A stretch of DNA of 64,000 nucleotides from Anaerolineae bacterium (GTDB lineage: Bacteria; Chloroflexota; Anaerolineae; Aggregatilineales; J027). Within the stretch, counting starts at the first letter, position 1, and the number at the start of each line of letters is the position of its first letter. The stretch spans positions 124,001 to 188,000 of the forward strand of contig JAJTXY010000007.1 of the NCBI GenBank assembly GCA_021463865.1. Reading direction: 5' to 3'. A model generated the notes under the pieces. It was not told where the DNA came from. It made no database searches and worked only from the letters and a program-made list of their open reading frames with translations. The position numbers were made by a program, and so were the translations under genes. Of this stretch, positions 26,235 through 35,905 are shown one piece after another.

Positions 26235-28211
26235 ATGAGCAAGTTGCGAACATTTCTGATTATCGTGGTGGTCGCCGCGATTGGTATCTCAGTCGGGCGC
26301 ACCTTTACCACCAAGACCAACGTCAAGGCGCAGGGCCCGGGTTGGCAGGAAATTGCTGAGGCACGTGGCCTGACCGAAGATGACCTGCGGGCGGCGGCCA
26401 TGACCTATACCCCAAGCGGTGTGATGGATGAATACGTGATGTTTGCGTCGGGCGGTCACAGTGGACAGGTGTTAGCCATCGGTGTCCCCTCGATGCGTCT
26501 GCTGCGTACCATTAGCGTTTTTACCCCTGAGCCATGGCAGGGATACGGTTATGGGGCAGGCAATGAAGTCCTCGATCAGGGGAACATTGACGGGCAAGAA
26601 ATTCGTTGGGGCGATTCGCATCACCCATCGTTAAGCGAAACGAATGGTGAGTATGACGGCGAATGGTTATTCATCGGCGATAAGGCCAATGGGCGCGTGG
26701 CGGTGATTGACCTGCGCGATTTCGAGACCAAACAAATTGTCACCAATCCGATTTATCTCAACGATCACGGCGGCACCTTTGTGACCCCCAACACCGAATA
26801 CATTGTTGAAGGTGGTCAATATGCCCATCCGTTGGGTGGCGAATATGCGGATATTGCGGAATATCAAGACCAGTATCGGGGCCTCATCACCTTCTGGAAA
26901 TTTGACCGCACCACCGGGCGCATTGATGAAAGTGCCTCGTTTGCAATGGAACTGCCCCCCTATTGGCAAGACCTGTGCGACGCGGGTAAAGCTGTTTCAG
27001 AAGGTTGGGTTTTCTGCAACTCCATCAATACCGAAATGGCGACAGGTGGTATTGAATCGGGCAATCCCCCCTTTGAAGCAGGTGTTAGCCAAAACACGCA
27101 CGACTATCTGCACGCCATTAACCTAAAGGCAGCCGAAGCCGTTGCCCAAGCGGGCAATACGGTTGACATCAATGGGATGCGTGTCATTCCACTCGAAACC
27201 GTCAACGAAAATGGCCTGCTCTATTTCGTCCCCGAACCCCGCAGCCCGCATGGTGTAGACATTGCCCCACACGGTGATTTTATGGTGGTGGCAGGCAAAC
27301 TTGACCCACATGTCAGCGTCTATAGCTTTGCCAAATTGCAGGCGGCGATTGCGGCAGGTACGAGCGAAACCGACCCCTATGGTGTGCCAATTCTGCCAAT
27401 GGAATCCGTTTTGGAAGCGCAGGTCGAACTAGGGCTTGGGCCACTCCACACCCAGTTCGATAATCAAGGCTATGCCTATACCAGCTTATTCCTCGATTCA
27501 GCCGTTGCGCGGTGGAGTCTTGGCGCGGAGGGCTATCGTCCACAGGATGGCTGGGCGCTGCAAGGTCGCATCCCGGTTCAATATAACGTAGGCCATATTG
27601 CTGCCGCCGAAGGGGACACTGTTTCACCGGACGGTACCTATCTGGTTGCTCTCAACAAATGGTCAATTGATCGTTTCCTTTCCACTGGCCCGCTGCTCCC
27701 CCAGAACCTGCAACTCGTGGATATTTCGCAATCGGGTGAGACCATGCAGGTCTTGTATGACCTCCCGATCACGGCTGCCGAGCCACACTATGCCCAGATT
27801 ATGAAGGCCGACAAGCTCAAGGCGTGGGATGTCTATCCTGAAGTGGGCTGGAATCCACTGACCCAAGCGGCAGACCCCAACTCGGTGAAACAAGGCGAAG
27901 AGGGTGTTGAACGTGATGGCAATAACGTTACTGTCCGTATGACCGCCGTCCGCAGCCACTTTACGCCAGAACATGTCGAAATCCAACAGGGCGATCATGT
28001 CGTCTGGACAATCACCAATGTCGAACGCGCCCGCGATGCGACACACGGCTTCTCGATTCCTTTCTATAACATCAACCTGAGTATTGAACCCGGTGAAACC
28101 GTCACCTTCGAGTTTGACGCCATTCGTCCGGGGGTCTTTACATGGTACTGCACTGAGTTCTGCTCGGCGCTGCACCTCGAAATGATGGGGTATTTCAACG
28201 TCCAACCCTAG
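26235..28211 (+). CDS. nosZ: Nitrous oxide reductase, Sec-exported (clade II type)
   Basis: Reduces N2O to N2 outside the cytoplasmic membrane. Start at 26235 (AAGGAG 6 nt upstream); an in-frame TTG at 26211 is not needed. 658 residues: a Sec signal peptide without twin Arg (KLRTFLIIVVVAAIGISVG), a beta-propeller with His-rich CuZ segments (DSHHPSLSETNG, LNDHGGTF, PHGVDIAPHGDF, GPLHTQFD, YNVGHIAAAEGD), and a C-terminal cupredoxin with the CuA site in THGFSIPFYNINL and WYCTEFCSALHLEMMGYF (Cys-x3-Cys, His, Met). The Sec signal and accompanying gene set mark it as the atypical clade II form. It heads the nos cluster under a Crp-type site. Confidence 0.97.
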   Translation: MSKLRTFLIIVVVAAIGISVGRTFTTKTNVKAQGPGWQEIAEARGLTEDDLRAAAMTYTPSGVMDEYVMFASGGHSGQVLAIGVPSMRLLRTISVFTPEPWQGYGYGAGNEVLDQGNIDGQEIRWGDSHHPSLSETNGEYDGEWLFIGDKANGRVAVIDLRDFETKQIVTNPIYLNDHGGTFVTPNTEYIVEGGQYAHPLGGEYADIAEYQDQYRGLITFWKFDRTTGRIDESASFAMELPPYWQDLCDAGKAVSEGWVFCNSINTEMATGGIESGNPPFEAGVSQNTHDYLHAINLKAAEAVAQAGNTVDINGMRVIPLETVNENGLLYFVPEPRSPHGVDIAPHGDFMVVAGKLDPHVSVYSFAKLQAAIAAGTSETDPYGVPILPMESVLEAQVELGLGPLHTQFDNQGYAYTSLFLDSAVARWSLGAEGYRPQDGWALQGRIPVQYNVGHIAAAEGDTVSPDGTYLVALNKWSIDRFLSTGPLLPQNLQLVDISQSGETMQVLYDLPITAAEPHYAQIMKADKLKAWDVYPEVGWNPLTQAADPNSVKQGEEGVERDGNNVTVRMTAVRSHFTPEHVEIQQGDHVVWTITNVERARDATHGFSIPFYNINLSIEPGETVTFEFDAIRPGVFTWYCTEFCSALHLEMMGYFNVQP

Positions 28212-28294: not shown

Positions 28295-29011
28295 ATGACC
28301 ACCATGACACAATCTTTAAATCCTTCAACCACCAACACTAGGGCCATCTGGCACAAAGTTTTACGAGCCGTTCCATCAGTGCTGCTGATTGTGGCGGCGA
28401 TCTTGATCTTGCAATCCATGTCGAAACCTTATTGGAATATGCACTTGGATGCGGTGCAATATGAATATCGTGGCGGTCTCGATATTTTGGTCTATGTAGA
28501 CCGGATGACTGGACGCGACCCTGAATTTGACGAACTGCGCGAACTCAATTCGCTTAATCATTACATCGGGATGCGGAAGCTGGACGATGCCGCCGAATTT
28601 GAACGTTCGATTGCCGAAGTCAGCGTCTATGCCTTTGCGGTGCTGCTGACCCTGACGGCAGTTGGACAATTTATTCAATGGCGTGGGCGGAAATTCGTCT
28701 GGTTGTTGGTCTTGCCACCTCTATCCTTCCCCTTTGTTTTTCTGGGTGATCTCTATTATTGGCTGCGCGACAGTGGGCAGAATCTTGACCAGAATGCTCC
28801 GTTTTCAAGCTCGATTCACCCCTTTACCCCACCGATCTGGGGCGAGGGCAAGGTGGGCCAATTTGAAACCGTCGCCAGCTTGGACACGGGCTGGTATATG
28901 ATTTTTGCCGCCAGCGTGTGCATTGTTGTGGCGCTACTTTGGACATTGGTGATGGCTCGGCGGGGACATTCGGCGGTGACAACTCCCCCAACGCCCGAAG
29001 GAGCTAAGTAA
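28295..29011 (+). CDS. Nos-cluster membrane protein of unknown function
   Basis: 238 residues with four predicted helices (about 29-46 VPSVLLIVAAILILQSMS, 107-127, 131-155 and 200-224). A roughly 60-residue extracytoplasmic segment lies between helices 1 and 2 and contains LDILVYVDRMTG and ELNSLNHYIGM. The His/Met-bearing LNHYIGM motif recurs in membrane proteins I recall next to atypical nosZ genes; metal binding by it is a guess. A GGAG-type RBS precedes the start. It lies between nosZ and nosD and overlaps neither. A role in NosZ metal assembly or electron supply is inferred from position. Confidence 0.75.
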   Translation: MTTMTQSLNPSTTNTRAIWHKVLRAVPSVLLIVAAILILQSMSKPYWNMHLDAVQYEYRGGLDILVYVDRMTGRDPEFDELRELNSLNHYIGMRKLDDAAEFERSIAEVSVYAFAVLLTLTAVGQFIQWRGRKFVWLLVLPPLSFPFVFLGDLYYWLRDSGQNLDQNAPFSSSIHPFTPPIWGEGKVGQFETVASLDTGWYMIFAASVCIVVALLWTLVMARRGHSAVTTPPTPEGAK

Positions 29012-29012
29012 C

Positions 29013-31361
29013 ATGTCCCGCTGGATAGTCGTCGGGATATGCCTGTTCATGGCCCTCACGATGTTTCCGGCGTCGGCGCGGGGTGGCGACCATCAGCGGC
29101 TGATTGTCGCACCCGACGGCCCTTTTATGACCATTGATGCCGCATTGGAGGCTGCTGAGACGGGTGATGTAATCGAGGTGCATGGTGGGGTATATGCTGC
29201 GCCACTCATCATCGAAAAAAGCGTCACTCTGACTGGCATTGGGCAGCCCGTGATTGATGGTCAAGGTGAAGGTAGTTTGGTATATATCCGGGCCACCGAT
29301 GTCACGCTGCAAGGTTTTGATTTACGCAACAGCGGCAGTGTCCAACATCACCAAGATGCCGGCATCGTGGTTGAGGCCCAGCAGGCGACGTTAATTGAGA
29401 ACAATCTCACCGATGTGTTGTACGGGGTGCTTTTTGCCAATGCAGCCGGCGGGGTCGCCCAACAAAACACCATTCGTGGCAAGGAAAATGAACCGAGTCT
29501 CCGAGGGGATGGCTTCAATATCTGGTACAGCAATGATATCAGCCTGTTGGATAACACCGTCGTTTACACCCGCGACACGCTTGTGTCCTACTCCAATGGC
29601 CTGACCATTCGCGGGAATCATTTTGAAGACAACCGCTATGGCCTGCATTTTATGTATAACAATGGGGCGCTAGTCGAGGACAATACCTTCGTCAACAACT
29701 CGGTGGGCGCGTTTTTGATGTACTCGCACGATGCGACGATCCAAAACAACATCTTCGCCTATAACCGAGGATCAAGCGGCTACGGCTTGGCCCTCAAAGA
29801 TATGGACAACGTGACCGCCACCGATAATTTTTTCGTGGGCAACAATGCCGGCGTCTATCTCGATAACTCACCCTCGCTGGTAGATGTCTATAACACCTTT
29901 CGGGGCAATACCTTTGTGTATAACGATGAAGGCGTCACCTCGCTACCCTCCGTCTCGCGCAACATCTTTACCGAAAACAGCTTTTTGGAAAACACCGAAC
30001 AGGTCAGTATGCGGGGGCGCGAAATCCTCAGCCGCAATCAATGGTCATTCGAGGGACGCGGCAATTATTGGAGCGATTATGCGGGCTATGACCGCAATGG
30101 CGACGGTGTAGGCGAAACGACCTATCAAGCCGATCAGGTCTTTGAGAATTTGGTGGACGAATACCCCGTTATCCAGCTTTTTGCGTATGGCCCGGTGGTA
30201 CAGGCAATTGAATTCAGCGGGTCGGCTTTCCCGGTGCTGCGCCCCCAACCACGTTTGGTGGATGATGCCCCATTGCTGAATTACCGCTTTCCGCCCTATC
30301 TGGAAAAGCAGTCTAGCACAATGGCATGGTCAACCCTAGCGGTTTCATTGGGTCTGCTTGGTCTTGCTATGCTGCCCATGCTGATGGTTGTCAAGCGGCC
30401 CATTCGGAAAAAGTCAGCTTCTTACCCACAGGCGAAGGCATCACGTGTTTCCATTGCCCCAGACCGACAGGAGTCTGTTCCTATGATTACCGCCGACCAT
30501 CTCAGTAAACATTATGGCAAACACCGCATTTTGAACGATGTCTCGTTTTCCATTCAACCCGGCGAGGCAGTGGCTTTGTGGGGCACGAATGGCGCTGGCA
30601 AAACCACCACCCTGCGCTGCCTGTTGGGGACGGTGAATTTTCAAGGGCAGTTGACAGTCAACGGCTTAGATGTCAAACGTGAGGGCAAACGGGTGCGGGC
30701 CAGCATTGGCTATGTCCCCCAAGAAACGGCCTTTTATGATATGACCGTCGGCCAGACCATGCAGTTTTATGCCAAATTGAAAAAAGTCGCCGTGACCGAC
30801 ATCACCCCGATTTTGGAACGGGTGGGTTTGGCGGCGCAGGTACAAAAACCCGTTCACAATCTGTCGGGTGGGATGAAACAGCGCTTGGCGCTGGCGGTGA
30901 GTCTGTTGGGGAATCCCCCCCTGCTCCTGTTTGACGAACCCACTGCCAATCTCGATACCCAATCTCGACAGGAATTTTTGCAGCTTGTCCATACGTTAAA
31001 TCACGACGGCAAGACTATCCTATTTTCGACTCACCGTCCCGATGAAGTGCTGTCGCTTGCCACTCGTGTTTTGGGGTTGCGCGATGGACAGGTGATTTTG
31101 GACGGTGCGCCCGATGCCCTGTTACAGGAAATCGGTCTTTCCCAATGGCTGCGCATGTGGATTCCCCCCCATCACTGGCAGGCCGCCATCGCCCTCCTCA
31201 GCACCAGTGGTTTTCGCACCGCCCCCAATGGACATTCGCTGTTTGTGCAGGTCGGCAGTCAATCCAAGATTTCGGCGCTACGGCTTTTGGAAACCGCCCA
31301 AATCCCGGTTGAGGATTTTGATGTCGTGGACAGCAGCTTTGTACCGGAGGTGCAATCGTGA
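29013..31361 (+). CDS. nosDF: NosD-NosF fusion: copper-maturation protein joined to ABC ATPase
   Basis: A single 782-codon frame. Residues 1-22 form a signal peptide. Residues about 25-400 are the right-handed beta-helix of NosD (repeats such as GLHFMYNNGALVEDNTFVNN and ending RGNYWSDYAGYDRNGDGVG). Residues about 435-458 form one membrane helix followed by KRPIRKK (positive-inside). Residues 491-782 are the NosF ATPase: Walker A GTNGAGKTTT (about 523), LSGGMKQRL (about 616), Walker B LLLFDEPTANLD (about 638). The helix would place NosD outside and NosF inside, as needed for the NosDFY copper-chaperoning transporter. An internal ATG at 30483 (codon 491) has AGGAG 9 nt upstream, so separate NosF could also be made. 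A single-base change in AAAAA (30408-30412) would split the frame; see findings. Confidence 0.9.
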   Translation: MSRWIVVGICLFMALTMFPASARGGDHQRLIVAPDGPFMTIDAALEAAETGDVIEVHGGVYAAPLIIEKSVTLTGIGQPVIDGQGEGSLVYIRATDVTLQGFDLRNSGSVQHHQDAGIVVEAQQATLIENNLTDVLYGVLFANAAGGVAQQNTIRGKENEPSLRGDGFNIWYSNDISLLDNTVVYTRDTLVSYSNGLTIRGNHFEDNRYGLHFMYNNGALVEDNTFVNNSVGAFLMYSHDATIQNNIFAYNRGSSGYGLALKDMDNVTATDNFFVGNNAGVYLDNSPSLVDVYNTFRGNTFVYNDEGVTSLPSVSRNIFTENSFLENTEQVSMRGREILSRNQWSFEGRGNYWSDYAGYDRNGDGVGETTYQADQVFENLVDEYPVIQLFAYGPVVQAIEFSGSAFPVLRPQPRLVDDAPLLNYRFPPYLEKQSSTMAWSTLAVSLGLLGLAMLPMLMVVKRPIRKKSASYPQAKASRVSIAPDRQESVPMITADHLSKHYGKHRILNDVSFSIQPGEAVALWGTNGAGKTTTLRCLLGTVNFQGQLTVNGLDVKREGKRVRASIGYVPQETAFYDMTVGQTMQFYAKLKKVAVTDITPILERVGLAAQVQKPVHNLSGGMKQRLALAVSLLGNPPLLLFDEPTANLDTQSRQEFLQLVHTLNHDGKTILFSTHRPDEVLSLATRVLGLRDGQVILDGAPDALLQEIGLSQWLRMWIPPHHWQAAIALLSTSGFRTAPNGHSLFVQVGSQSKISALRLLETAQIPVEDFDVVDSSFVPEVQS

Positions 31362-32194
31362 TGAATTTCAACGCGGTCTGGTTGATTGCTCAGAAAGAAC
31401 TGCGCGACGCCCTACGCAATCGCTGGTTCTTGCTGTATACCGTAATTTTTGGCGGGTTGGTATTGGCGCTTTCGATGCTCAGTCGGCCCGATGTCGAATT
31501 TACCCAACTGGCGGAATATAACCGCACGGTGACAGGCTTGGTCAATCTGGTGTTGCTGTTTGTGCCGCTAATGGCGCTCACATTCGGAGCATCCAGTATT
31601 TCGGGCGAACGCGAGACGGGCGCACTAAAATACCTGTTGACCCAGCCGATTGACCGAGGCGAAGTGCTGCTTGGTAAGTTTTTGGGGTTGGCCTCGGCTC
31701 AACTCAGCACCCTAATGCTCGGCTTTGGCGTGGCGGGGGTCATTCTTTCGACACGCGGCGGGGGCGATGGCCTCTCCGGTTATGTGGTGATGACGGGCAT
31801 GGCATGTTTGCTTAGTCTTGCCATGTTGAGTGTCGGTTTCCTTATCTCGGCACTCGCCCATAAAACCTCGACGGCCCTCGGCGCAGCGTTGTTTCTGTGG
31901 CTGCTGCTGGTGTTCGTCGGCGATCTGGGGCTGATTGGGGCGGCAATTGTCACTCAGATGCCCACCCAGACCACCCTGCTGCTGGCGATGGTCAACCCAC
32001 TGCAACTGTTTAAGATGGCCTCGATTTTCAGCACCCTCAGTTCGTTGGAGGTCTTAGGGCCTGCCGGACTGTATGCCTCGGATACGTTCGGGGGGATGTT
32101 TATGCCCTTGATGTTGGCGGGACTGGTGCTGTGGATTTTGCTGCCGCTTGGTCTGGCCCAATTTGCTTTTGCACGAAAAGGAGACGGCGGATGA
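31358..32194 (+). CDS. nosY: NosY-type ABC permease for NosZ maturation
   Basis: Membrane subunit of the NosDFY complex. 278 residues, ABC-2 type, with six hydrophobic segments and the typical SSISGERETGALKYLLTQPIDRGEVLLGKFLG motif (about 82-112) after helix 2. It begins with GTG (31358, GGAGG 7 nt upstream) or the following ATG (31361), overlapping the nosDF stop. Its partner ATPase is the NosF half of the preceding protein. Confidence 0.9.
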   Translation: MMNFNAVWLIAQKELRDALRNRWFLLYTVIFGGLVLALSMLSRPDVEFTQLAEYNRTVTGLVNLVLLFVPLMALTFGASSISGERETGALKYLLTQPIDRGEVLLGKFLGLASAQLSTLMLGFGVAGVILSTRGGGDGLSGYVVMTGMACLLSLAMLSVGFLISALAHKTSTALGAALFLWLLLVFVGDLGLIGAAIVTQMPTQTTLLLAMVNPLQLFKMASIFSTLSSLEVLGPAGLYASDTFGGMFMPLMLAGLVLWILLPLGLAQFAFARKGDGG

Positions 32195-32571
32195 ACACGC
32201 GATTTGTACTGCCTGCCATTCTCGTCATTGTAATCATCGGCCTTGTGGGGTTTGTGGTGGCTACCGTTGTTGGCTCGACCCAATCCAAAGAATCCCATGA
32301 ATTTCGCATTGTGATTCCAGCCGGGACCGGTGATCGCATCGCCGCCGGGGAAGACCCCGACATTGTGCCGCTGGAAATCCACCTGACGATTGGCGAAAAA
32401 GACACCCTCGTGATCGAAAACCGCGACACGGTGGGCCATACGATTGGCGATTTCTGGGTGGGCACGGGCGAAACGGTGCGCCAGAAATTCCAGACACCGG
32501 GGGTTTATCTTGGTCTCTGCACTGTTCACCCGGCCCAACAGATTCAAATCATTGTTAGCGACAAAGGATGA
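32191..32571 (+). CDS. Membrane-anchored cupredoxin
   Basis: 126 residues starting at the ATG that overlaps the nosY stop (ATGA). One N-terminal helix (FVLPAILVIVIIGLVGFVVATVV) anchors a blue-copper domain. Type-1 copper ligands are visible: His in VGHTIGDF (about 89), then Cys and His in LGLCTVHPAQQ (about 113-123), where a Gln may replace the axial Met. It could shuttle electrons to NosZ or copper to the maturation machinery; both are inferences from its position in the cluster. Confidence 0.85.
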   Translation: MNTRFVLPAILVIVIIGLVGFVVATVVGSTQSKESHEFRIVIPAGTGDRIAAGEDPDIVPLEIHLTIGEKDTLVIENRDTVGHTIGDFWVGTGETVRQKFQTPGVYLGLCTVHPAQQIQIIVSDKG

Positions 32572-32574
32572 ACC

Positions 32575-33600
32575 ATGTTTCGTAATCGTAATTTTTCTGA
32601 ACTGATGCCATTGGCTGGTGCAATCGGTGCGCTGACCCTCGGTCTGGTTTGTTTACTGGTGGGGTTTGCTTCCCTGTACCAATGGATAGACAAAAACGAT
32701 AATGAAAAATCCAGTGCCGAGGCATCAGCGGGACTGCCTCCCATGTCCGACTATGCGGCGGCGATTGCCACTCTTGATGCCGCTCCAGTTCGCACCGCGC
32801 AGCCGCGTGCGGTGAGCCAAGCCTCCGGTTCGACTTCGGGTGATCTAGGCTATGATCCAGCGGTGGTTACACAAGGGCAGGAATTGTTTATTGCCACCTG
32901 TTCGGCCTGTCATGGCCCGGACGCGCATGGGGTGGTCGGTTTGGGCAAAGACCTCATCAACAGCGAATTTGTCCACGAGCAGACCGATGCCGACTTGATG
33001 AATTTTATCAAGATGGGCCGTCCGATTTGGGATGCCGCCAATACGACGGGGATTGATATGCCCCCCAAAGGCGGCAATCCAGCCCTGACCGATGAACAGT
33101 TAACGCTCATTATCACCTTTATTCGCGCATCGTCGGGCGTTCCGGCCACAGCATCGGGTGGCGATGTGGTTGTTGCACCCACCGAAAGCACCCCGGAAAC
33201 GGTGGCGGTTGTGCCGACCACTGAATCGCCCGCAAGCGTACCTGTTGTCGCTCCTACCACTGCTCCGACTGTTGCCCCCGCCGAAGATGCCAATGTCAGT
33301 ACCTCATTGGTCACCGAAGGCCAAGAATTATTTGTGGCGACCTGTTCAGCTTGTCACGGTGCAGATGCACATGGCATTGTCGGATTGGGCAAAGATTTGG
33401 TCGTCAGTGAATTTGTGCATGAATTGACCGATGCCGATTTGCTCACCTTTGTCAAAACAGGTCGTCCGATCTGGGATGCGGCCAATACGACGGGGATTGA
33501 TATGCCCCCCAAAGGCGGGAACCCGGCGCTCACCGATGAACAAATTATGAGCATCATTGCCTATATTCGCTCGCTGCAAAATCCGGAGGGTGGATCATGA
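32575..33600 (+). CDS. Membrane-anchored tandem-domain cytochrome c
   Basis: 341 residues: an N-terminal helix (about 14-38), then two class-I cytochrome c domains with heme motifs CSACH at about 109-113 and 257-261, each followed by a distal Met in DMPPKGGNPALTDEQ. They are separated by a Thr/Pro/Val-rich linker (about 190-240). The two domains are nearly identical, including at DNA level (about 33028-33080 versus 33472-33524), indicating a recent internal duplication. As the only c-type cytochrome in the nos cluster, it is the likely electron donor to NosZ. The stop overlaps the next gene by ATGA. Confidence 0.92.
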   Translation: MFRNRNFSELMPLAGAIGALTLGLVCLLVGFASLYQWIDKNDNEKSSAEASAGLPPMSDYAAAIATLDAAPVRTAQPRAVSQASGSTSGDLGYDPAVVTQGQELFIATCSACHGPDAHGVVGLGKDLINSEFVHEQTDADLMNFIKMGRPIWDAANTTGIDMPPKGGNPALTDEQLTLIITFIRASSGVPATASGGDVVVAPTESTPETVAVVPTTESPASVPVVAPTTAPTVAPAEDANVSTSLVTEGQELFVATCSACHGADAHGIVGLGKDLVVSEFVHELTDADLLTFVKTGRPIWDAANTTGIDMPPKGGNPALTDEQIMSIIAYIRSLQNPEGGS

Positions 33601-34220
33601 AACGCTGGGGATTAATGCTTGTTATATTGTTGCTCGTGCCTATCCTCGCGGCCTGTGGTCAAACCACCGAAGCCGAAGACCGATTGGAACAATCCACGCC
33701 ATCGCTGCAAGAACAAATCCGAGGAGCGGTCATTGTGCCCCCCCGCCAGATCGAGGATTTTACACTGCCCTCGACAGACGGTGAATTTCGCTTCAGCGAT
33801 TTACGCGGCAAATTGGTGCTGATCTATTTCGGCTATATGACCTGCCCAGATGTATGCCCCACCAGCGGCGCTCATCTCAAACGGGTCTATGAGGAAATCA
33901 ATCGCCCCGACGACCTTGCGGTGGTGTTTGTCACAGTTGACCCCGAACGCGACACGCTTGACCGTCTGCGGCCTTACATCAAACTGTTTAATGAAGATTT
34001 TGTGGCCCTACGCGGCGAAGGGGATGCCCTCCAAGAGGTGCTAAATCAATTTGGTGTGGTAGCCATTCGACGGCAGGTCGGTGAATCGGCTTTAAGTTAT
34101 CTAATGGATCACACCGCCAGTATCTTTTTGGTCAATCAAGAGGGTTTGCTCATCTCCCAGTTTATTTTTGGGCTGGGGTCGGACGACATTTTGCATGATG
34201 TCGAGCTACTATTAGAGTAA
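33597..34220 (+). CDS. SCO1/SenC-family copper/redox lipoprotein
   Basis: 207 residues with a lipoprotein signal (VPILAACG, lipid-attachment Cys about 21) and a thioredoxin-like Sco domain. The copper-binding Cys-x3-Cys is in TCPDVCP (about 82-88) and the third ligand is His in DHTASIFLV (about 171). Sco proteins deliver copper to CuA centres, usually of cytochrome oxidase. Here the nearest CuA protein is NosZ, so it may build the NosZ CuA site and substitute for NosL, which is absent from the window. Coupled to the cytochrome gene by a 4-bp overlap. Confidence 0.93.
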   Translation: MKRWGLMLVILLLVPILAACGQTTEAEDRLEQSTPSLQEQIRGAVIVPPRQIEDFTLPSTDGEFRFSDLRGKLVLIYFGYMTCPDVCPTSGAHLKRVYEEINRPDDLAVVFVTVDPERDTLDRLRPYIKLFNEDFVALRGEGDALQEVLNQFGVVAIRRQVGESALSYLMDHTASIFLVNQEGLLISQFIFGLGSDDILHDVELLLE

Positions 34221-34495: not shown

Positions 34496-35173
34496 ATGAG
34501 TGTATCCATAGCCGATTTGGAGACGATTAAAGCATTAAGCCATCTGCCGCAGACCAGTCTGGAAAAACTCGCTGGCCTCATGATTCCGCAGACCTATGCT
34601 CCCGGTGAGCTTATCTTTATTGAGGATGAGCCAACCGAGGGAATGTGGTTCATTTTTGAGGGTCAAGTCAAGGTGATGAAACAGTCATCGTTGGGACGAG
34701 TACAGGCCCTATGTCTGGTGGACAAAAAACGCTGTTTTGGGTCATGCCCGTTGTTTACCCGACCCATGAACCCCGCCAGCGCACAGGCCCATACCGATGT
34801 GACCCTGTTTATCTTACCGGCTAGCGCTGTCGCCCAATTGGTTAACCGCGATCCAGCCTTGACGAGGGTACTCCTTGAAATCTATGGCGAGTACATTACG
34901 CTGTTGTCTTGTTTGAGTGAAAAACTGGGGGTATGGCGGGTGGCGGGTCGCCTGAATGATGCGTTGCTCAACTATGCCGTGCCACATGACCCCTATCCGA
35001 TGGTGCGCTTGACGCATGAGCAATTGGCAGAATTGGTCGGGACGGTGCGCGAGGTGGTTTCCCGCCATCTGTTGCAGCTAGAACAACAAGGGCTAATCCT
35101 AATTGAGAAAGGACTCATCCATCTGGTTCACCCGGAGCGTTTAGATACCATGCTCCCCTGTGCAAAAGAATAG
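34496..35173 (+). CDS. Crp/Fnr-family regulator with a cysteine cluster
   Basis: 225 residues: an N-terminal cyclic-nucleotide-type beta-roll (about 15-125), a dimer helix (about 125-160) and a winged helix-turn-helix with LTHEQLAELVGTVREVVSRHLLQLEQQG (about 165-193). Three Cys in CLVDKKRCFGSCP (about 76-88) sit where other family members have a GxxFGE loop, with further Cys at about 141 and 222. These might bind a cluster, heme or sense redox state, but no N-terminal Fnr-type Cys array is present. GGAGG precedes the start. Encoded directly after the nos genes, it is a candidate activator at 26148-26163. Confidence 0.88.
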   Translation: MSVSIADLETIKALSHLPQTSLEKLAGLMIPQTYAPGELIFIEDEPTEGMWFIFEGQVKVMKQSSLGRVQALCLVDKKRCFGSCPLFTRPMNPASAQAHTDVTLFILPASAVAQLVNRDPALTRVLLEIYGEYITLLSCLSEKLGVWRVAGRLNDALLNYAVPHDPYPMVRLTHEQLAELVGTVREVVSRHLLQLEQQGLILIEKGLIHLVHPERLDTMLPCAKE

Positions 35174-35218
35174 GGTGACTCCGATCATCGAGCCAATTTG
35201 GAGAGGCGGTGCAGACTT

Positions 35219-35905
35219 ATGCAGGTCTCAATAGACAATATACGCCACATTGAACGCTTTGACCAGCTTTCTGCGCCGACCCTTGCCGCGCTTGCTGCGA
35301 TTGCGCAACCAATGGCTTTTGATCGCCATCAGGTGTTTTATCAGCAAGGCGAAACACCCCCCGGCGTCTACTGCCTGCAATCCGGCCAAGTCAAGCTCTA
35401 TCGGCAGGCAGGCACCAAGATTCAAATATTGGTCATCGTCCAAGCGGGCGGCGCGTTTGGGGTCGAGGTTTTGAATGCCAGAGCGGTTGCGGCCTGCAAT
35501 GCGGAGGCGACGGCCAAAGGGGTTGCCTTCTATTTACCCGGCGACAAGCTGTGTCATCTGTTGAGGGTAAATGCGGAATTGGCCCTCGCGTTTTTGGGCT
35601 TGCTTTCCGACCAATTTTTGACCATGAGCAATCTGGTACATGATCTGGTTTTTCACGATGTCAGCGCCCGTTTAGCTTTGTTTCTTCTGCGACAGGACAG
35701 GTATCCAAGTTTGGAAGGCCACTGTATTTCGCGCAATTTTTCGCAGCAAGAATTGGCGGCGGTGGTTGGCACAGGGCGTGAAGTGGTCTGTCGGACGCTG
35801 AAACGTTTTGAAACCGAAGCCATTCTGCGGGTGATCCCCCGTAAAATCCTCATCCTCGATTTAGCCCGATTGACGGCACTCGCCAATCAGGACGGCGGTA
35901 ATTAA
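35219..35905 (+). CDS. Second Crp/Fnr-family regulator
   Basis: 228 residues from ATG 35219 (a TTG 21 bp upstream is a possible alternative). It has a beta-roll with FDRHQVFYQQGETPPGVYCLQSGQVKLYR (about 33-61) and a C-terminal winged helix with FSQQELAAVVGTGREVVCRTLKRFETE (about 174-200), where Cys replaces the usual Ser in REVVSR. It lies 45 bp after the previous regulator; the two are diverged paralogues, probably co-transcribed. Ligand unknown. Sensors of NO, O2 or redox in this family (Dnr/Nnr type) control denitrification, which fits the location. Confidence 0.86.
   Translation: MQVSIDNIRHIERFDQLSAPTLAALAAIAQPMAFDRHQVFYQQGETPPGVYCLQSGQVKLYRQAGTKIQILVIVQAGGAFGVEVLNARAVAACNAEATAKGVAFYLPGDKLCHLLRVNAELALAFLGLLSDQFLTMSNLVHDLVFHDVSARLALFLLRQDRYPSLEGHCISRNFSQQELAAVVGTGREVVCRTLKRFETEAILRVIPRKILILDLARLTALANQDGGN

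Follow-up and report, generated by a model that had tools for sequence, protein, structure and literature searches.

The nos cluster of the window, the 64,000-nucleotide stretch of an Anaerolineae genome analysed here, encodes NosD and NosF in a single gene, nosDF, whose product joins the two proteins through a transmembrane helix. NosDF is a variant of the NosDFY machine that recurs within the phylum Chloroflexota. We think that, in the genus of the window, the start of the former nosF gene at position 30483 is still translated from within the fusion, and this reading gives a directly testable dual-product prediction, namely the fusion together with free NosF. N2O reductase, which NosDFY helps to assemble, is the principal biological sink of a potent greenhouse gas, and there is current interest in how ATP consumption in the cytoplasm is coupled to the delivery of copper sites outside the cell; in the fusion, the external donor and the internal motor are linked in one chain. 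Our literature searches, judged mainly from titles, found no publication on a NosD-NosF fusion.

Architecture of the nosDF gene

The nosDF gene lies on the forward strand between nosZ (26235-28211; TIGR04246 823 bits, cut-off 625) and nosY (31358-32194; ABC2_membrane_2, E 6e-36), and spans positions 29013-31361, a frame of 782 residues that ORF calling and translation find uninterrupted. The start is preceded by an AGGAG Shine-Dalgarno (SD) sequence at 28999-29003 with a spacer of 9 nt, and the first ~23 residues (29013-29081), hydrophobic after MSRW, are probably a Sec signal peptide. Residues 41-422 (29133-30278) form the NosD beta-helix domain, which scores 401 bits with TIGR04247 (cut-off 300) and 141.3 with the Pfam NosD/Beta_helix family PF05048 (cut-off 23.6), and beta strands are predicted within it. 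This assignment is further supported by the location of the gene in a nos cluster that contains both nosZ and nosY. The core of the transmembrane helix follows at residues 442-460 (30336-30392), with a hydropathy of 2.38 over 19 residues, and is succeeded by KRPIRKK at the beginning of a predicted cytoplasmic linker, residues 461-490 (30393-30482), which up to position 30466 is the most variable of five regions compared. The NosF ATPase occupies residues 491-782 (30483-31361), with an ABC_tran match at residues 507-645 (E 3.9e-31), and its translation contains a Walker A motif (GTNGAGKTT), an ABC signature (LSGGMKQ) and a Walker B motif (LLLFDEPTA).

The first-pass annotation of this DNA had proposed a single frame joining an exported NosD, a membrane helix and a complete NosF, which the domain matches bear out. 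Its view that the positive charges lie on the inner side of the membrane agrees with the topology predicted from the domains, the hydropathy and the KRPIRKK stretch. The helix is likewise present, but its core lies at residues 442-460 rather than at about 435-458 as had been suggested. The products of about 85 and 32 kDa that were anticipated correspond to calculated masses of 85.8 kDa for NosDF and 32.0 kDa for the candidate free NosF that would begin at the ATG at 30483.

From its first residue on, the NosF part aligns with separate NosF proteins beginning at their own N-terminus, and a one-way search of 21 genomes of the order matches it over near full length, at 300-361 bits, to the nosF that follows a separate nosD. 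Judged by sequence, it is the orthologue of the separate nosF genes that lie beside nosD. Both parts of the fusion also match the chains of NosDFY in PDB entry 7o0y, from Pseudomonas stutzeri, with the NosD chain 7o0y_A aligning to residues 58-429 of NosDF and the NosF chain 7o0y_B matching as well. NosDFY of this and related entries thus has the same functional modules as the protein described here; however, NosD and NosF are separate chains there, whereas here they form one chain through a membrane helix. A structure model of NosDF (pLDDT 66.2, 8 sequences) falls below 50 at residues 346-489, helix and linker included. The best 50 Foldseek matches to this model are to ABC ATPases, including the NosF chains 7o0y_B and 7o14_B, with no NosD chain among these 50.

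Distribution and origin of the fusion in Chloroflexota

The window genome (G000) is a 59-contig draft, and a missed stop codon or a frameshift, introduced in sequencing or assembly, could in principle join two genes into an apparent fusion. Three congeners, however, carry full-length single frames with 95, 93 and 92% identity (JAIOHL010000236.1, QMIT01000005.1 and JABFGB010000012.1), many further fusions occur in the sample described below, and the complete plasmid of a cultured isolate, Thermomicrobium roseum DSM 5159, encodes a 783-residue one-gene fusion (WP_012643063.1). Since both the congeners and the complete plasmid carry the fusion, it is real and does not result from an indel, and an artefact, which is hardly credible, was rejected on these three grounds. 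The case that the first-pass annotation had named as adverse, an indel here together with close relatives that have only separate genes, is therefore absent.

The T. roseum protein has the same NosD-helix-NosF architecture and matches NosDF in one piece, at 39.9% identity over 94% of the query. It differs from the gene in the window in having no SD at the boundary start and in its adjoining nosL, the gene order being nosZ, hypothetical, nosDF, permease, nosL. Among the best 15 of 157 matched plasmid records it is the sole one-piece match, the other 14 being in two pieces. We further note that the T. roseum fusion (L175:5920-8271) is annotated as 'NosD' alone. Where fusions are annotated in this way, automatic surveys may score an organism as lacking nosF. 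A passage in a study of Thermoflexus names nosDYLZ, a list from which nosF is missing (PMC8129789), and a fused nosF could explain its omission there.

Among the 154 genomes of the order, 28 have NosD (TIGR04247); samples of 396 genomes from the class and 400 from the phylum contain 83 and 26 such genomes, respectively. Fused, separate and neither-class loci number 7, 21 and 0 in the order, 50, 28 and 5 in the class, and 12, 14 and 0 in the phylum; these samples overlap, and combined they give 61 fused, 54 separate and five in neither class among 120 NosD-bearing genomes. The fusion that the first-pass annotation had suggested looking for in related Chloroflexota nos clusters is thus widely present. 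A locus is called fused when NosD and NosF fall within one stop-to-stop frame. The five genomes in neither class comprise four in which the NosF part is absent from the available stretch (G429, G510, G344 and G172) and one with NosD on two contigs (G464), and outside all counts are T. roseum, two loci with separate frames (L012 and L013) and one with a NosF-like gene alone (L014). With seven fused against 21 separate loci, separate genes are the commoner state within the order. The fusions cover 21 families, as defined by group codes.

A quick LG+G4 tree, built from 108 of the 115 rows, requires at least nine changes between the fused and the separate state, where shuffles give 35.6; starred branches force at least seven of these changes. 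The tree cannot separate gains from losses, and long branches, those of the group f18 and the outgroup, may meet in it. Absent from the tree are the locus of G182, which has an X in the helix, and the divergent separate loci of G779, G705, G792, G808, G726 and G840.

Separate NosD proteins already end in a hydrophobic segment, so that the fusion did not have to create the helix anew. Such a C-terminal segment, with a 19-residue mean hydropathy of at least 1.3, is present in all 54 separate NosD proteins (at least 1.6 in 52 of them), and is followed by a tail with a median of 18 residues. The NosF start, taken as aligned residue 1, lies no more than 20 bp from the nosD stop in 40 of the 54 pairs and at most 300 bp from it in the remaining 14, and several of the pairs overlap by 4 bp. 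Among the fusions, the hydrophobic segment reaches at least 1.3 in 58 of 61 and at least 1.6 in 47 of 61, with none found in the stretch searched in one of them (G386). The tail helix has a parallel outside the phylum, in that a putative C-terminal transmembrane helix is described for all five NosD proteins of the Gram-positive Bacillus azotoformans, where, unlike in the fusion here, nosD and nosF are listed as separate genes (PMC3475470). Because separate NosD proteins carry their membrane helix directly before nosF, the fusion would most simply have arisen when a tail-anchored nosD lost its stop codon in frame with the nosF directly behind it.

An internal start for NosF and the subunit ratio

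In the gene of the window, codon 491 is an ATG at 30483 preceded by AGGAG at 30469-30473, with a spacer of 9 nt and a duplex energy of -6.9, as the first-pass annotation had noticed. The start of nosDF itself has the same AGGAG-N9-ATG signal with the same spacing. Predicted mRNA accessibility, which gives no clear indication either way, is 0.61 (unpaired) at the internal SD and 0.33 at the internal start, compared with 0.55 and 0.11 for the SD and start of nosD. The in-frame, SD-led start at the domain boundary is invariant in all four NosD-bearing genomes of the genus, the fifth genome of the genus (G025) having no NosD. Across these four congeners, an invariant run of 29 nt (30467-30495) extends over the SD and the ATG and ranks in the top five by length over 2409 columns; in the adjacent linker 40 of 66 columns vary (30400-30466). 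Invariant runs of at least 29 nt cover about 8% of the columns of the gene and the alignment of the linker is uncertain, so that conservation among congeners by itself is suggestive and not decisive.

Evidence from beyond the genus comes from a count of internal starts, sought from the end of the helix to four codons beyond NosF residue 1, with an SD scored as AGGA, GGAG or GAGG at a spacing of 4-12. Across the 61 fusions, 26 of 65 linker ATGs carry an SD, compared with 42 of the 652 ATGs found in frame outside the linker and 183 of 2141 linker codons that are not starts (Fisher ~1e-12 and ~2e-11, respectively, values that are inflated by relatedness). An SD-bearing linker ATG occurs in 13 of the 21 fused families (13 of the 20 that have a linker ATG), where 3.7-4.7 would be expected (P 2e-6 to 3e-5). 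Synonymous shuffles, which leave the encoded protein unchanged, predict 16.3 SD-ATGs where 26 are observed (P 7e-5 if sites are independent), and codon choice thus adds to the SD excess, while the encoded amino acids explain much of it. Linker GTG codons are hardly enriched for an SD (11 of 59, against 198 of 1803 elsewhere) and TTG codons are not clearly enriched (2 of 22, against 67 of 757). By the same test, 24 of 45 separate nosF starts have an SD. Strong SDs are retained in the three fusions of the f40 genus, whose linkers diverge in amino acid sequence (NGEEEN, QEDVN and GERVRD). The idea that the internal start is lineage noise was dropped; the counts show a start that is absent in many fusions and over-represented in the rest.

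The mechanism that we favour, with moderate confidence, begins with a tail-anchored nosD that lost its stop codon and so became joined to the adjoining nosF. The resulting NosDF would be a fused subunit of NosDFY, the ABC machine responsible for maturing the copper sites in N2O reductase, with NosD exported and held by its own C-terminal helix, NosF inside the cell on the same chain, and both working with the NosY encoded next door. In the genus of the window the old nosF start, AGGAG-N9-ATG, would have been kept and translated, giving the fusion plus some free NosF, and the two products could assemble into DF:F:Y2, a complex that would contain a single NosD and a pair of ATPases. This stoichiometry, which is less likely than use of the start, fits the chain counts in the PDB, where a single NosD sequence accounts for 16 chains over 16 entries and a single NosF sequence for 30 chains over 15 entries. 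A similar principle, in which one gene supplies a long and a short subunit, is found in type I-D CRISPR systems, where Cas11d is made from the 3' end of cas10d by internal translation and one Cas10d is described as joining two Cas11d (PMC9123187). The proteins are unrelated to NosD and NosF, and internal translation is supported by experiment for cas10d, whereas for nosDF it is proposed from sequence.

Had all lineages depended on this arrangement, each fusion would be expected to carry the start, and many do not. Of the 61 fusions, 11 have no ATG in the linker and four have neither ATG, GTG nor TTG; a linker ATG with an SD or a duplex of -5 kcal/mol or lower is missing from 28, or from 24 when GTG and TTG are counted. 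No SD precedes the boundary GTG of T. roseum; an ATG located 14 codons into its NosF, downstream of GGGGAA, may serve as a start, though it would shorten the ATPase. G032, the nearest fused relative outside the genus, keeps the ATG with a GGGG-type site only, and G019 has a boundary ATG without an SD. All seven f18 fusions lack an SD-ATG. One of these is on a single-contig genome (G163) with no close second NosF, its best other ATPase reaching 144 bits at 38% identity; identities rise to 44-45% in lower-scoring matches, out of 77 ABC ATPase matches overall. Given the fusions that lack a linker ATG or an SD, together with T. roseum and G163, an SD-led linker start appears unnecessary as a general source of NosF. 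Since the f18 fusions have no SD-ATG and G163 has no close NosF, a complex built from the fusion alone must probably work in such lineages. Other fused lineages share the internal start of the genus only in part.

A rival explanation extends this arrangement to the window as well, such that all NosF is made as fusion, the complex is D2F2Y2 with two NosD or with one of them idle, and the ATG and its SD are leftovers. Something like it must hold in the lineages without a linker start, including T. roseum and the f18 group. For the genus of the window, we consider it doubtful though far from negligible, because there the motif is unchanged beside a linker that varies at most of its columns, and because the SD of linker ATGs is enriched across many families. 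Alternatively, the fusion might be cut in the linker after synthesis into NosF and a tail-anchored NosD, with proteolysis or turnover determining the ratio. At 30 residues here, and a median of ~31 over the fusions, the linker is long; it is also poorly conserved and of low confidence in the structure model, but the linkers viewed by eye have no common cleavage motif, and we regard cleavage as improbable. Free NosF for the second ATPase site could also come from another gene, and ABC ATPases are plentiful in G000 (114 matches) as in G163. The best candidate in G000, however, reaches only 122 bits at 36% identity, and neither this nor the best in G163 approaches the scores of the separate NosF proteins of the order, so that on sequence comparison of these two genomes, which a diverged NosF could escape, a supply from elsewhere in the genome is very improbable.

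The first-pass annotation had linked an internally started NosF to a ratio of one NosD to two NosF. Independent initiation finds support in the conservation of the motif within the genus and in the enrichment of the SD across fusions, and is weakened by the many fusions without it; the ratio agrees with the PDB entries, but the linker start is dispensable as a general NosF source. Overall, the fusion that it described is confirmed and its interpretation is supported in part, with a 1:2 stoichiometry possible in the genus of the window and not general. For the phylum as a whole we suggest, tentatively, that Chloroflexota have recurrently rebuilt this machine, with NosD and NosF on one chain across the membrane, several lineages keeping an in-gene ribosome-binding site whose extra NosF would restore one NosD to two NosF, and others having lost that site and running a two-NosD machine. 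Variants with and without the internal start offer a natural comparison for deciding if the machine requires a single NosD or a pair.

Neighbouring genes of the nos cluster

The nosZ gene encodes a Sec-type nitrous oxide reductase; its ORF as called starts at a TTG (26211), and the ATG at 26235 is the likely start. Between nosZ and nosDF lies a gene for a 238-residue membrane-type protein (28295-29011, forward strand) without a Pfam or NCBIfam match, and T. roseum has a 212-residue 'hypothetical' at the equivalent position. This position resembles that of NosB in clade II clusters. The nosY permease gene starts at GTG 31358 or ATG 31361 and overlaps the stop codon of nosDF.

Downstream of nosY, also on the forward strand, positions 32194-34220 encode a small cupredoxin-like protein, for which the cupredoxin matches are weak and below cut-off, a protein with two cytochrome c domains and an SCO1/SenC protein (33597-34220). 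No NosL (PF05573) is found in G000, and among nine further nosD-bearing genomes it is clear in G163 only, with a weak fragment in G026 and none in the other seven; the SCO1/SenC protein might stand in for NosL.

The cytochrome gene (32575-33600) has two stretches around CxxCH that appear very similar by eye and two Cytochrome_CBB3 matches, consistent with a tandem duplication of the cytochrome c domain, and the spacer between the two domains is rich in proline, valine and threonine. Two adjacent genes for Crp/Fnr-like regulators lie downstream of the nos cluster (34496-35905), the first with matches to cNMP_binding and HTH_Crp_2 and the second assigned by eye.
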